A stretch of DNA of 64,000 nucleotides from Bacteroidia bacterium (GTDB taxonomy: Bacteria > Bacteroidota > Bacteroidia > B-17B0 > Aurantibacillaceae): contig JALHRL010000001.1 of NCBI GenBank assembly GCA_022841465.1, positions 1 to 64,000 on the forward strand, given 5' to 3'. A model generated the notes under the pieces. It was not told the DNA's origin. It was given only the letters and a program-made list of their open reading frames with translations, and searched no databases. Of this stretch, positions 7,397 to 56,062 are shown in pieces (position 1 is the stretch's first letter; every line of letters starts with the position of its first letter). The translations under genes and the position numbers were made by a program.

Positions 7397-7455
7397 AGTA
7401 TATAAAATAGGAACAAGCTGTGATTAAACTTGTTTTATGAATAAACAAATAAATT

Positions 7456-7680
7456 TTATTTTTTTGTGCTATCAATAGCAGCAGCGGTTGGCATAGGAAC
7501 CGCTTGCATTCCGGGCGCCGGCGCCGCAGCATCGTCCATTGATGTTTTAATTAATGTTGCAATGGAGTCTTGAAACACTTTTGCGCGAGCATACATGGCT
7601 TCTCTGTTTTCGGCAGCAGGGCCACAAGAACTAATAAATACAACTACAGTTAATGAAAACAAAACAGCTAATTTCTTCAT
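7456..7680 (-). CDS. Small lipoprotein, paralogue of the 7779 gene
   Basis: A 74-residue protein with a lipoprotein signal sequence: MKKLAVLFSL followed by a hydrophobic stretch and the lipobox ISSC, with Cys at residue 19. The mature part is short, begins CGPAAENREAM, has a helical charged segment (ARAKVFQDSIATL) and ends in an Ala/Pro-rich tail. It shares the CGPxAE start, the QDSI core and the tail with its upstream neighbour, so the two are a tandem duplication. Function unknown. A terminator lies between the two genes, so this copy may depend on read-through or on a promoter I could not identify. Confidence 0.7.
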   Translation of the reverse strand: MKKLAVLFSLTVVVFISSCGPAAENREAMYARAKVFQDSIATLIKTSMDDAAAPAPGMQAVPMPTAAAIDSTKK

Positions 7681-7725
7681 GAATACACGTTTTTAAGGAA
7701 AACAAAATTAAGAAAAAATAAACAA

Positions 7726-7778: not shown

Positions 7779-8009
7779 TTAGTGAGCTGGAGCTTCAGCA
7801 GGAGCAGCTTCAGCAGCAGGAGCAGCAGCTGTATCAACAGGAGCAGCTTCAGTTGCAGCTTCTTCAACTATTGCATTAGCAGCAGCAGTAATAGAATCTT
7901 GCATTCTTTTTAAATTTTCTTCGATTTTTGCTTTCTCTTCAGCTGAAGGACCGCAAGATACCATAGTTGCCATTGCAGCTACAGCGATTAATGATAACAC
8001 TTTTTTCAT
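7779..8009 (-). CDS. Small Ala-rich lipoprotein
   Basis: A 76-residue lipoprotein: MKKVLSLIAV, hydrophobic core, lipobox MVSC with Cys19, then GPSAEEKAKIEENLKRMQDSI, an amphipathic helix, and an Ala/Pro/Glu-rich low-complexity tail. It is a paralogue of the 7456 gene. It reads divergently from the ECF sigma factor at 8253, and the 243-base gap carries the same 13-base element facing each gene, so it is a candidate target of that sigma factor (inference). It may sit at the inner face of the outer membrane. Function is not known. Confidence 0.75.
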   Translation of the reverse strand: MKKVLSLIAVAAMATMVSCGPSAEEKAKIEENLKRMQDSITAAANAIVEEAATEAAPVDTAAAPAAEAAPAEAPAH

Positions 8010-8062
8010 TTTTTTAAACGTTTAATTGATTAATGATACCATTTATTCTAAAAAAAGAAAAT

Positions 8063-8075
8063 GGTAACCCAAAAT
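8063..8075 (-). promoter_or_regulatory. 13-base shared element, lipoprotein side
   Basis: The minus strand reads ATTTTGGGTTACC, followed by ATTTTC, ending 53 bases before the ATG of the lipoprotein gene. It is identical over 13 bases to the plus-strand element at 8205-8217 before the sigma gene. It is probably a promoter core or operator. Confidence 0.5.
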
Positions 8076-8204: not shown

Positions 8205-8221
8205 ATTTTGGGTTACCTTTG
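8205..8221 (+). promoter_or_regulatory. 13-base shared element and TACCTTTG, sigma side
   Basis: ATTTTGGGTTACC (8205-8217) runs into TACCTTTG (8214-8221), a TAnnTTTG match, with a TTG at 8195-8197 about 16 bases upstream. The ATG of the sigma gene is at 8253. The shared 13-mer with the divergent lipoprotein gene suggests joint control. Confidence 0.5.
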
Positions 8222-8252
8222 CAATTATTAAGTATCAAACTAAAGTAGGCGT

Positions 8253-8831
8253 ATGATAAAGCCCAAACCAAAATTAACCGACAGTGATTTTATTGAAGGT
8301 TTACGAAACGGTGACGAAATTGCTTTATCTGCACTTTACAAAAAGTACTATAACCTTGTTCTTAAATTTGTTGTAAGCAATAACGGATCTTCAGATGCCG
8401 CACAAGATGTTTATCAAGAAACGATAATTGTTTTGTATGAGAAATGCAAAGACCCCGGATTTGTTTTAAACTGTCAGTTGCAAACCTATATTTATTCGGT
8501 AGCGCGCAACTTGTGGTTAAAACAATTAAAAAAACACGGAAGTGTAACCGGTTTAAAAGATTTTCATGTTGATGTGTTAGAAGAGGCGAGTGGCGATGTA
8601 AAAAGCCATTTAAAAAAGGAAGAAGAAATTGAAAAGGTTATGCAAAGTTTATCTCAACTAGGCGAACCTTGCGCAACTTTGCTGAAAGACTTTTATGTGA
8701 ACAAAATGAGCATGGATGATATTTCGGAAAAGTTTGGCTATACCAATTCAGATAATGCAAAGAACCAAAAGTACAAATGCTTACAAAGATTAAAGAGGTT
8801 GTTTTTTAATAATTTTACATTGATAGATTAA
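8253..8831 (+). CDS. ECF-type RNA polymerase sigma-70 factor
   Basis: A 192-residue extracytoplasmic-function sigma factor. Region 2 spans about residues 20-90 (the LYKKYYNLVLKFV and DVYQETIIVLYEKC blocks, YIYSVARNLW), and region 4 is the C-terminal helix-turn-helix around MSMDDISEKFGYTNSDNAKNQK with a final LQRLKRLF. No region 3 or extra C-terminal domain is present. Its stop is 2 bases before the ATG of the predicted anti-sigma/protease gene, so the two are probably cotranscribed and translationally coupled. The regulon is unknown; autoregulation and control of the divergent lipoprotein are plausible from the shared upstream element. Confidence 0.92.
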   Translation: MIKPKPKLTDSDFIEGLRNGDEIALSALYKKYYNLVLKFVVSNNGSSDAAQDVYQETIIVLYEKCKDPGFVLNCQLQTYIYSVARNLWLKQLKKHGSVTGLKDFHVDVLEEASGDVKSHLKKEEEIEKVMQSLSQLGEPCATLLKDFYVNKMSMDDISEKFGYTNSDNAKNQKYKCLQRLKRLFFNNFTLID

Positions 8832-8833
8832 AA

Positions 8834-9922
8834 ATGAGAACGGTAGATTTGTTTGATAATTATTTGGCAGGAAACTTGGAGGGCTCAGACTTGTTAGCGT
8901 TTGAACAACGCTTAGAAAACGACAGCACTTTTAAAAAAGCATTTCAAGAACATAGACTGTTATTAGATTTATTAACCGAACACAACGATAAAAACAGCTT
9001 AAAAAACAAATTAAACCAAATTCATTCGGTACACTTTGGTAAAGAGGCTAAAATTATTTCAATAAACAATTCAGAAAAGTTAACCAAGCGATTAGGAAAA
9101 ACATTTGCGGTAGCTGCCAGCGCTGCTGTTGTTGCCGTTGTGGTTACCATTGCACTATTAAGCACCGGCGGATATTTACTTAAGAAACAAAAAAGCGAAA
9201 TCACCGATTTAAAACGAGAGGTAGACGGCTTAAAATATTACCAAGATGCAATTGTACAAAAACTAAAAACCAAAGGAACCAAAACCAATGTGGTAGATGC
9301 AAATTTAGAAGGAACCGGTTTTGCTATTAACAACGATGGTTATGTTTTAACCAGCTGGCACATGGTAAACGGAGCCGACAGTATTTTTATTGAAAACAGC
9401 AATACCGAAAGAACACAAACAAAAATTATTTTTAACGACCCCTCTTTAGATATTGCAGTTTTAAAAATTGAAAACGCAAATGTTTCGGAAAATTGGCAAA
9501 TACCTTACACCTTTTTTCCGAAAACAATTGATGTTGGCGACAATGTATTTACCTTAGGATATCCTAGAAGAGATGTTGTTTATGGCGAAGGTTCTTTAAG
9601 CTCGCAAAGCGGATATTATAACGATACGGCCATGTATCAAATTTCTATTCCGGTTAACCCCGGAAATAGTGGCGGACCATTATTAGATGTTTATGGAAAT
9701 GTAATTGGGGTTATTCGCGGAAAAATTAGCACAGCAGAAGGAACGGGTTTTGCTATAAAATCGCGCGAAATTATAAAATCGTTTACAACCATTGATGGAG
9801 ATAGCGCCACTATTGATTTTGCATCACCAAAAAGAAACGGCTTAAAAAACTTAAAACGCAGCGAGCAATTAAAACGCATTACACCTTATGTGTTTAATGT
9901 AATGGTGTATAAAAGCAATTAA
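8834..9922 (+). CDS. Membrane trypsin/HtrA-like protease with anti-sigma-like N-terminus
   Basis: A 362-residue single-pass membrane protein. Residues 1-50 (LFDNYLAGNLEGSDLLAFEQ, then LENDSTFKKAF) resemble the cytoplasmic helical segment of Bacteroidota anti-sigma factors. A transmembrane helix covers about 90-116, a short coiled coil 118-145, and a chymotrypsin-fold serine protease domain about 155-320. The catalytic triad is visible: His176 (TSWHMVNG), Asp206 (PSLDIAVL) and Ser279 (GNSGGP). No PDZ domain is present. The topology puts the N-terminus in the cytoplasm and the protease in the periplasm. It lies 2 bases after the ECF sigma gene, so I infer a sigma-binding partner whose outer domain senses or cleaves envelope proteins. 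An unrelated HtrA-like protease is the alternative. Confidence 0.8.
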   Translation: MRTVDLFDNYLAGNLEGSDLLAFEQRLENDSTFKKAFQEHRLLLDLLTEHNDKNSLKNKLNQIHSVHFGKEAKIISINNSEKLTKRLGKTFAVAASAAVVAVVVTIALLSTGGYLLKKQKSEITDLKREVDGLKYYQDAIVQKLKTKGTKTNVVDANLEGTGFAINNDGYVLTSWHMVNGADSIFIENSNTERTQTKIIFNDPSLDIAVLKIENANVSENWQIPYTFFPKTIDVGDNVFTLGYPRRDVVYGEGSLSSQSGYYNDTAMYQISIPVNPGNSGGPLLDVYGNVIGVIRGKISTAEGTGFAIKSREIIKSFTTIDGDSATIDFASPKRNGLKNLKRSEQLKRITPYVFNVMVYKSN

Positions 9923-54175: not shown

Positions 54176-56062
54176 ATGATTAAGTTAGTTGGTTTAGTTC
54201 CTCTTTTTCCTTTAATCGGTTTTTTAATAAACGGATTTTTTGGAAAAAAATTAAGCAAGGGTGCTTCAGGTGTAATTGCTTGCGGAGCTGTTTTGGCGTC
54301 CTTTATAATTTCTTTATTATTGTTTTTTGAGGTAGAAAAACTTCCAACACATTCAGCAACTATTAATTTGTTCGATTGGATTAGCGCCGGAACCTTATCT
54401 GTACCTTTTGAGTTTGTTATTGACCCATTATCGAGTTGGTTTTTATTAATAATTACCGGAATCGGGTTTTTAATACATGTTTATTCAACTTCCTATATGC
54501 ATGACGATGCGGGGTTTTCAAGGTTCTTTACCTATTTAAATCTTTTCGTGTTCTTCATGTTACTGTTGGTGTTAGGAAATAATTTCTTAATCATGTTTGT
54601 AGGCTGGGAAGGTGTAGGTTTATGTTCTTACTTGCTAATTGGGTTTTGGTTTAAGAATAATGATTATAACAATGCCGCCAGAAAAGCTTTTGTAATGAAT
54701 AGAATTGGCGACCTTGGATTTTTATTAGGCATACTTTTAATTTTTGTAACCTTTGGAAGCATTAGTTACAACGAAGTGTTTTCAAAAGCGGGAACTGCAT
54801 CAGAAGCAACCATTACCGCCATAGCACTCTTGTTGTTTGTTGGTGCCATGGGTAAATCGGCACAAATTCCTTTATACACCTGGTTACCCGATGCAATGGC
54901 CGGACCAACCCCTGTATCAGCGTTAATACATGCTGCTACCATGGTAACTGCAGGTATTTACATGATTGTTCGTTCAAATGTGTTTTATTCTATTAGTGAA
55001 GTAGCTTCTGAAACAGTTGCTATTGTTGGTGTTGCAACTGCACTTTTTGCAGCTTCTATTGGTTTGTTTCAAAACGACATAAAAAAAATTCTTGCCTACT
55101 CAACTGTTTCGCAATTAGGTTTAATGTTTCTAGGTTTGGGTGTTGGCGCATTCAGCAGTTCTGTATTTCATGTTAGTACTCATGCCTTTTTTAAAGCCTT
55201 GTTGTTTTTAGGTGCCGGCTCTGTTATTCACGCAATGGGCGGCGAACAAGATATCCGTAAAATGGGTGGGCTAAAGGGCCACATGAAAATTACTTTTGCA
55301 ACCATGGCCTTGGCAACACTGGCCATTAGCGGTATTCCACCGTTTTCAGGTTTCTTTTCTAAAGATGAAATTTTAGCACACACCTACGAACACAGTTCAG
55401 TACTTTGGTTTTTTGGTCAGGTAGCCTCTATGCTAACGGCGTTTTATATGTTTAGAATGTTGTACTTAACGTTTTACGGAAATTTCCGTGGCACAAAAGA
55501 ACAACATCATCATTTACACGAATCGCCAAAGGCTATGACCATTCCATTAATAGTATTGGCAATCTTGTCTGTTTTTGGCGGATTATTAGGCTTACCGGAA
55601 TTCTGGCATTTTCCTAATTGGATGAGCGAACATTTATCTTCTCTTATTCTTAGAAAAACACCTGTTACCATGGCGCATGAAACAGAATGGATGTTAATGG
55701 GCATTGCGGTTTTAGCAGCAATTGCAACAATTTATGTAGCGTACGTTATTTACCGTCAGAAAAACATTATTCCTTTAAAAGAAGGAGATAAAATGCCTGC
55801 GCTTCAAAAAGTAATTTATAATAAATATTATGTAGATGAATTTTATGATGCAATAGTTAGAAAGCCCTTAGATTTAATTTCAACTTTGTTTTACAAGTTT
55901 TTTGATAAGCAATTAATTGATGGAACAGTGGAGGGTGTAGGCTCGGGAGTAAAATCAATTGGAGGATTGGTTAAATTAATACAAAGCGGAAATATTGGGT
56001 TTTATATCATAAGCATGGTACTGGGTATTGTATTGATTTTATTATTCACTTTTATTATTTAA
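54176..56062 (+). CDS. nuoL: NADH-quinone oxidoreductase subunit L
   Basis: A 628-residue antiporter-like proton pump subunit with the C-terminal lateral helix. FVGWEGVGLCSYLLIGFW, KSAQIPLYTWLPDAMAGPTPVSALIHAATMV and LAYSTVSQLGLM are hallmark blocks. It starts 7 bases after nuoK. Confidence 0.96.
   Translation: MIKLVGLVPLFPLIGFLINGFFGKKLSKGASGVIACGAVLASFIISLLLFFEVEKLPTHSATINLFDWISAGTLSVPFEFVIDPLSSWFLLIITGIGFLIHVYSTSYMHDDAGFSRFFTYLNLFVFFMLLLVLGNNFLIMFVGWEGVGLCSYLLIGFWFKNNDYNNAARKAFVMNRIGDLGFLLGILLIFVTFGSISYNEVFSKAGTASEATITAIALLLFVGAMGKSAQIPLYTWLPDAMAGPTPVSALIHAATMVTAGIYMIVRSNVFYSISEVASETVAIVGVATALFAASIGLFQNDIKKILAYSTVSQLGLMFLGLGVGAFSSSVFHVSTHAFFKALLFLGAGSVIHAMGGEQDIRKMGGLKGHMKITFATMALATLAISGIPPFSGFFSKDEILAHTYEHSSVLWFFGQVASMLTAFYMFRMLYLTFYGNFRGTKEQHHHLHESPKAMTIPLIVLAILSVFGGLLGLPEFWHFPNWMSEHLSSLILRKTPVTMAHETEWMLMGIAVLAAIATIYVAYVIYRQKNIIPLKEGDKMPALQKVIYNKYYVDEFYDAIVRKPLDLISTLFYKFFDKQLIDGTVEGVGSGVKSIGGLVKLIQSGNIGFYIISMVLGIVLILLFTFII

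Follow-up and report, generated by a model that had tools for sequence, protein, structure and literature searches.

What controls an ECF sigma factor whose gene is followed, after 2 bases, by a single gene that joins an anti-sigma-like domain to a trypsin-fold protease? The question arises at one locus in the window, our term for the whole stretch of 64,000 nucleotides that was analyzed, and it touches a wider one. A class I survey recognized an anti-sigma domain (ASDI) beside only 6% of the Bacteroidetes ECF sigma factors (PMC7406223), so how these sigma factors are controlled is largely open. The pair found here offers a conserved answer for one group of them, together with a promoter and predicted targets. 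The features of the locus are as follows.

7779 to 8009, minus strand: small lipoprotein of 76 amino acids with the lipobox VSCG, a predicted regulon member (from the translation and the conservation of a divergent ORF)
8042 to 8069, minus strand: candidate divergent promoter copy, GGTTAC-N15-GAATAAA, with 2 mismatches (motif scan; a divergent box is common in the family)
8211 to 8238, plus strand: predicted autoregulated promoter, −35 box GGTTAC, 15-base spacer, −10 box GTATCAA, with one mismatch to the consensus
8253 to 8831, plus strand: ECF sigma factor, 192 amino acids (Sigma70_r2 and TIGR02937 matches; in relatives, the gene just before that of the protease)
8834 to 9922, plus strand: anti-sigma/protease fusion, 362 amino acids, a single gene (architecture kept in 99 distinct relatives)
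8834 to 9037, plus strand: anti-sigma-like helical domain, residues 1-68 (predicted structure, neighbors of sister sigma factors, weak NF052375 matches)
9098 to 9169, plus strand: single transmembrane (TM) helix, about residues 89-112 (hydropathy)
9188 to 9274, plus strand: coiled coil, about residues 119-147, with invariant L126 (heptad conservation)
9296 to 9814, plus strand: HtrA-like trypsin-fold protease domain, residues 155-327 (Trypsin_2 match and DegS superposition)
9359 to 9361, plus strand: catalytic His176 (99/99 relatives)
9449 to 9451, plus strand: catalytic Asp206 (99/99 relatives)
9668 to 9670, plus strand: catalytic Ser279, in GNSGG (99/99 relatives)
9815 to 9919, plus strand: conserved C-terminal tail, helix 342-352 and strand 353-359 (pLDDT about 95; conserved R342, V353, F354, and V358)

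A preliminary description of this DNA had placed the sigma ORF, the 2-base gap, and the 362-residue ORF exactly where we found them: the sigma gene ends with the TAA at 8829-8831, and the fusion gene starts with the ATG at 8834. The product of the first gene has region 2, the region-4 helix-turn-helix, and no other large domain, which makes it an ECF sigma factor. Its matches to Sigma70_r2 (Pfam; E, 1.2e-8) and sigma70-ECF (NCBIfam TIGR02937; 66 bits) both exceeded the cut-off, and regions 2 and 4 of a modeled relative (L010) each superposed on ECF sigma chains at about 2-3 Å.

The adjacency of the two genes held up in the survey of other genomes that had been set as a check. A strong match to the fusion protein was present in 81 of the 87 genomes of the window's GTDB family, and each of the 79 distinct family relatives that span at least about residues 1-318 has the sigma gene directly before it, in the same orientation; the start of the fusion gene overlaps the sigma stop codon (ATGA) in 22 of these 79. 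Among the genomes with no match, the promoter and the sigma gene run into a contig end in two (G050 and G055). A phylum sample yielded 20 class-level relatives, all with an adjacent sigma gene, and a class sample of 295 genomes contained a full-length or near-full-length relative in 43, with an adjacent sigma gene in 42 and the sole exception lying at a contig edge. Chance adjacency of the sigma and protease genes was ruled out by these family, phylum-sample, and class-sample surveys, and the pairing is well supported by computation. One class-level relative (L115, in G335) has the sigma gene and is missing the first anti-sigma domain (ASD) helices, by either natural truncation or an assembly error.

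The likeness of the N-terminus to anti-sigma factors, proposed in the preliminary description, was borne out by the sister sigma factors, the closest relatives of the sigma factor that are not coupled to the protease. For all 12 that have a membrane protein encoded downstream, that protein matched the ASD profile (E, 5e-6 to 2e-13) and continued with a TM helix and then an unrelated C-terminus; none of the 12 matched the protease profile. Two sister sigma factors gave no downstream ORF. At three others (L219, L220, and L221), the downstream genes encode secreted or thioredoxin/peroxiredoxin-like proteins, not anti-sigma factors. The recurrence of the same N-terminus and TM helix with swapped C-termini beside sister sigma factors points to a modular anti-sigma domain, and the N-terminus of the fusion protein is very probably such a domain. 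In the sigma tree, all 47 protease-coupled sigma factors fell on one side of one branch (support 98/92), a placement that makes a single origin of the fusion probable.

No Pfam anti-sigma family matched the N-terminus, and the matches to the NCBIfam anti-sigma model NF052375, obtained for 17 of 25 full-length members, were weak (best E, 1.3e-5) and far under its cut-off; the sister pairs are therefore the main ground for the anti-sigma assignment. The HxxxCxxC motif of the zinc subtype of ASDI was found in 0 of 99 relatives; because ASDIs without zinc also exist (PMC7406223), its absence excludes the zinc subtype only. A structure prediction for the N-terminus with the sigma factor, suggested earlier, gave support of a limited kind. 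It was made with the natural in-frame relative L010, whose sigma stop codon was read through as an artificial linker, joining the sigma factor to residues 1-88. The joined model (artificial linker, no contact map) was confident (pLDDT 87.8, pTM 0.80), with mostly 93-97 for the ASD helices, but its sigma domains gave no close superposition on known sigma/anti-sigma complexes (rmsd, about 9-14 Å), and fold searches returned no well-superposing known sigma/anti-sigma arrangement, the ASD helices being barely covered. Of the two outcomes that the preliminary description had named as refuting its reading, neither was found, and that reading is supported in part.

Behind this domain, hydropathy and a 3-4 heptad agreed with the one TM helix and the coiled coil described earlier. 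The top-scoring 19-residue hydrophobic window of the fusion protein begins at residue 91 (stretch about 91-109), and each of the 99 relatives has one TM-like segment per chain, with no second TM-like stretch. The heptad is clean (I123, L126, V130, L133, Q137, I140, and L144), with L126 kept in 99/99 relatives. The predicted structure of the fusion protein (overall pLDDT, 81.8) showed ASD helices over residues 3-68 (pLDDT, about 82-96), the TM helix and coiled coil as one long helix at low confidence, the protease domain at 155-327, and, at 342-359, a C-terminal helix and strand modeled with confidence. The mean net charge flanking the TM helix was +2.5 on the N side versus +0.7 on the C side (99 relatives), a bias that, with the single TM helix, is consistent with the N-terminus inside and the protease outside and thus favors the earlier placement of the protease outside the cytoplasm. 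The protein accordingly has the layout of a single-TM anti-sigma factor, lying beside its sigma factor with one TM helix and a predicted cytoplasmic N-terminal domain, and its protease domain is predicted to be periplasmic. A translationally coupled layout and a single-TM architecture typify classical anti-sigma factors.

The protease domain itself proved to be a complete one with a His176/Asp206/Ser279 triad and no PDZ domain, as had been read from the sequence. It matched Trypsin_2 over residues 160-293 (Pfam; E, 6.8e-24) and is closest to HtrA; a phmmer search against solved structures aligned HtrA-type proteases over about residues 155-320, and the domain superposed on PDZ-deleted DegS (Z, 19.9; rmsd, 2.1-2.2 Å). 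H176, D206, S279, G277, G280, and L126 were invariant among 99 full-length relatives from several Bacteroidia families. With its trypsin fold and His-Asp-Ser triad, the domain belongs to the HtrA family (S1C), but the protein lacks the one or more C-terminal PDZ domains of DegS/DegP-type HtrA members: no PDZ match was obtained in the fusion protein at E up to 1 (Pfam), the chain runs on for only about 35 residues past the protease domain, and the C-terminal tail, which the HtrA superpositions do not cover, occupies the place of the DegS PDZ. The MarP model was matched by all 25 members scanned, the window protein scoring 91 bits, under the model cut-off of 250. The conserved coiled coil hints at a trimeric or otherwise oligomeric protease unit, a reading that is suggestive only. 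Relatives of the protease domain were also seen in longer secreted or lipoprotein-like proteins (L128-L132 and L088-L091), with no sigma gene found beside them; L128-L132 also resemble the fusion protein in their C-terminal strand motif (for example, YIIEV).

We propose that the locus encodes an envelope-response sigma/anti-sigma pair whose anti-sigma partner has an HtrA-type protease of its own, an explanation of five steps that, taken whole, we consider probable, if only just. Residues 1-68 quite probably bind the sigma factor, holding it at the inner face of the membrane. The TM helix and the conserved coiled coil are predicted from the architecture to display the PDZ-less trypsin-fold protease in the periplasm, where it is probably oligomeric. 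An envelope signal would switch on the protease, and the segment between the TM helix and the protease would be cut on the same or a neighboring chain, replacing a separate DegS (site-1); this self-cut by the fusion protein's protease is proposed by analogy. An RseP-like site-2 protease (S2P), of which a homolog is encoded in the window's genome, and then ClpXP-type proteolysis may release the sigma factor, as in RIP pathways. Using GGTTAC-N15-GTATTAA promoters, the freed sigma factor would transcribe the operon that encodes it (feedback), the small lipoprotein gene divergent from that operon, and the gene of a Cbp1-family coiled-coil lipoprotein. If the protease does cut its own chain, sensing, site-1 cleavage, and sigma inhibition would reside on one molecule, whereas RseA-type circuits use separate proteins. 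The fullest form of the proposal makes the anti-sigma factor, through its PDZ-less HtrA domain, its own site-1 protease, a one-chain transducer that is triggered at the envelope, cuts itself or its oligomer neighbors, switches on a tiny lipoprotein regulon, and constitutes an undescribed core envelope-stress pathway of several Bacteroidia families; we advance it tentatively, as a serious possibility that falls a little short of probable.

The protease domain might instead act only as a sensor or substrate-binding module, the cut in the anti-sigma factor being left to a separate site-1 protease; RseA/DegS would be the model for this and, by a different route, RsgI9. The S1C-like domain of RsgI9 from Clostridium thermocellum has been described as polysaccharide-binding, not cutting (PMC12203970), and at least one other HtrA-like protein is encoded in the window's genome. 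The sister anti-sigma factors lack a protease domain and still work; hence, such a domain is dispensable for freeing the sigma factor in this group. However, the 99 relatives show no or almost no variation at H176, D206, S279, and the GNSG loop, a constraint that binding alone would not call for, and we regard a pure binding role as unlikely.

More doubtful is the idea that the protease is an output of the system, degrading envelope proteins or the regulated lipoproteins, while the ASD merely sets a feedback between the amount of protease and the sigma factor. Such a role would suit the predicted cotranscription of the fusion gene from the sigma promoter and the existence of protease-domain relatives with a similar C-tail and no sigma gene in secreted or lipoprotein-like proteins, but the retention of the fusion since a single origin suggests that the state of the protease is coupled to sigma release. 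That the N-terminus is a pro-sigma activator and not an inhibitor, as in FecR, is highly improbable, since translational coupling and a single TM helix are the classical anti-sigma layout and no FecR-type domain was found (Pfam), even though N-terminal fragments of some membrane sigma regulators have pro-sigma activity (PMC9249621).

The promoter and the predicted lipoprotein regulon, on which the last step of our sigma/anti-sigma/protease proposal depends, are additions to the preliminary description. Upstream of the sigma gene, the consensus is GGTTAC-N15-GTATTAA, mostly 38-47 bases ahead of the start codon in the family loci; GGTTA(C) occurred at the corresponding place in 72/72 of these loci, and a GTATTAA-like −10 box occurred at offset 21 in 66/72. 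The same two boxes were present in most class-level loci. Among the sister sigma factors without the protease, only L211 came within one mismatch of the motif at the right place.

Reading the upstream GGTTACCTTTG as a housekeeping promoter of the Bacteroidota TAnnTTTG type, with the predicted regulon as a false lead, is very improbable. TAnnTTTG did occur in 35 of the 72 upstream regions versus 7 expected, but GGTTAC, TTT, and GTATTAA make up the conserved columns, at a fixed offset, with variation at the last G and a TTG at the right distance in only 6/72. Class-level relatives frequently read GGTTACTATTT upstream, and the GGTTAC and GTATTAA boxes also stand ahead of the Cbp1-family genes.

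The small lipoprotein encoded at 7779-8009 is Ala/Pro/Glu-rich and divergent from the sigma gene. The two-mismatch promoter copy ahead of it is not significant by itself within the 64-kb window and carries weight because it is conserved across relatives: a divergent GGTTAC/T box was present in 44/72 family loci, and a divergent lipoprotein-like ORF was present in 43/72, as well as in many class-level loci together with the divergent motif. A second small lipoprotein-like ORF adjoins this gene (about 7430-7690 of the window, minus strand).

Exact promoter sites numbered about one per family genome and were mostly the sigma factor's own promoter. Extra exact sites preceded the gene of an unlinked coiled-coil lipoprotein of 286-288 amino acids, a member of the Cbp1 family (NCBIfam NF052320; E, about 1e-65, above the cut-off). 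The promoter was found with at most 2 mismatches ahead of 26 of the 27 Cbp1-family genes with usable upstream DNA, versus about 0.15 expected, and in the window's genome it stands, with one mismatch, 16 bases ahead of the start. Examples from the promoter scan are as follows.

G000:C7:54834-55688: Cbp1-family lipoprotein, promoter at 55708-55735 (L234)
L285-L313: further Cbp1-family lipoproteins

The sigma factor is thus predicted to control a small regulon, consisting of its own operon and envelope lipoproteins, and this prediction is well supported by computation; the lipoproteins are its putative targets. A large regulon was rejected, as the window's genome had 14 sites with at most one mismatch versus 12 in the reversed control, and exact sites numbered about one per genome. 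Possible further targets are a lipoprotein-like ORF, possibly DUF4349-like by eye, that follows an exact promoter match (L280, in G024) and a one-mismatch match with no obvious ORF in the window's genome (L237, C15:45448).

Several known systems share parts of this design. The RseA/DegS circuit uses separate proteins (PMC8103513). Like RseA/DegS/RseP (sigmaE, Escherichia coli) and MucA/AlgW (Pseudomonas), the present locus has an ECF sigma factor beside a single-TM anti-sigma factor, an S2P in the genome, and, by prediction, an HtrA-type protease domain outside and an envelope regulon. Unlike in those systems, the protease is on the anti-sigma chain itself and has no PDZ domain, the ASD is not recognized by the Pfam families used, and the predicted targets are lipoproteins. 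MarP-type proteases likewise have a membrane-anchored HtrA-like domain without PDZ; MarP, however, is not known to pair with a sigma factor or to carry an anti-sigma domain. We know of no S1C-like fusion that, across several Bacteroidia families, retains its triad, has its cognate sigma factor encoded next door, and comes with a defined regulon, and a literature search, with most subscription journals outside its coverage, found no published description of the sigma/protease pair.

FoxR resembles the window protein in the periplasmic self-cleavage of an anti-sigma factor, which in our case is only proposed. It differs in that it has no protease domain and its cleavage is chemical, a nonenzymatic N-O acyl shift at Gly-Thr that is not essential for FoxI activation (PMC9249621). 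In C. thermocellum, RsgI anti-sigma factors self-cleave via a separate domain before RseP and ClpXP cut, and one of them, RsgI9, includes a domain resembling S1C peptidases that reportedly binds polysaccharide (PMC12203970). RsgI9 and other RsgI proteins thus resemble the window protein in carrying an anti-sigma N-terminus, a TM helix, and extracytoplasmic domains on one chain. Unlike the window protein, RsgI9 comes from a Gram-positive organism, where it is an orphan within the sigmaI system, and is cut by a separate autocleavage domain. The window protein shows no such extra domain in a general Pfam scan, with only a long helix between the TM helix and the protease in the model, and its triad is invariant. 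RsgI9 is a partial precedent for a fused S1C-like domain, and the sigma/protease pair is therefore a variant on a known theme.
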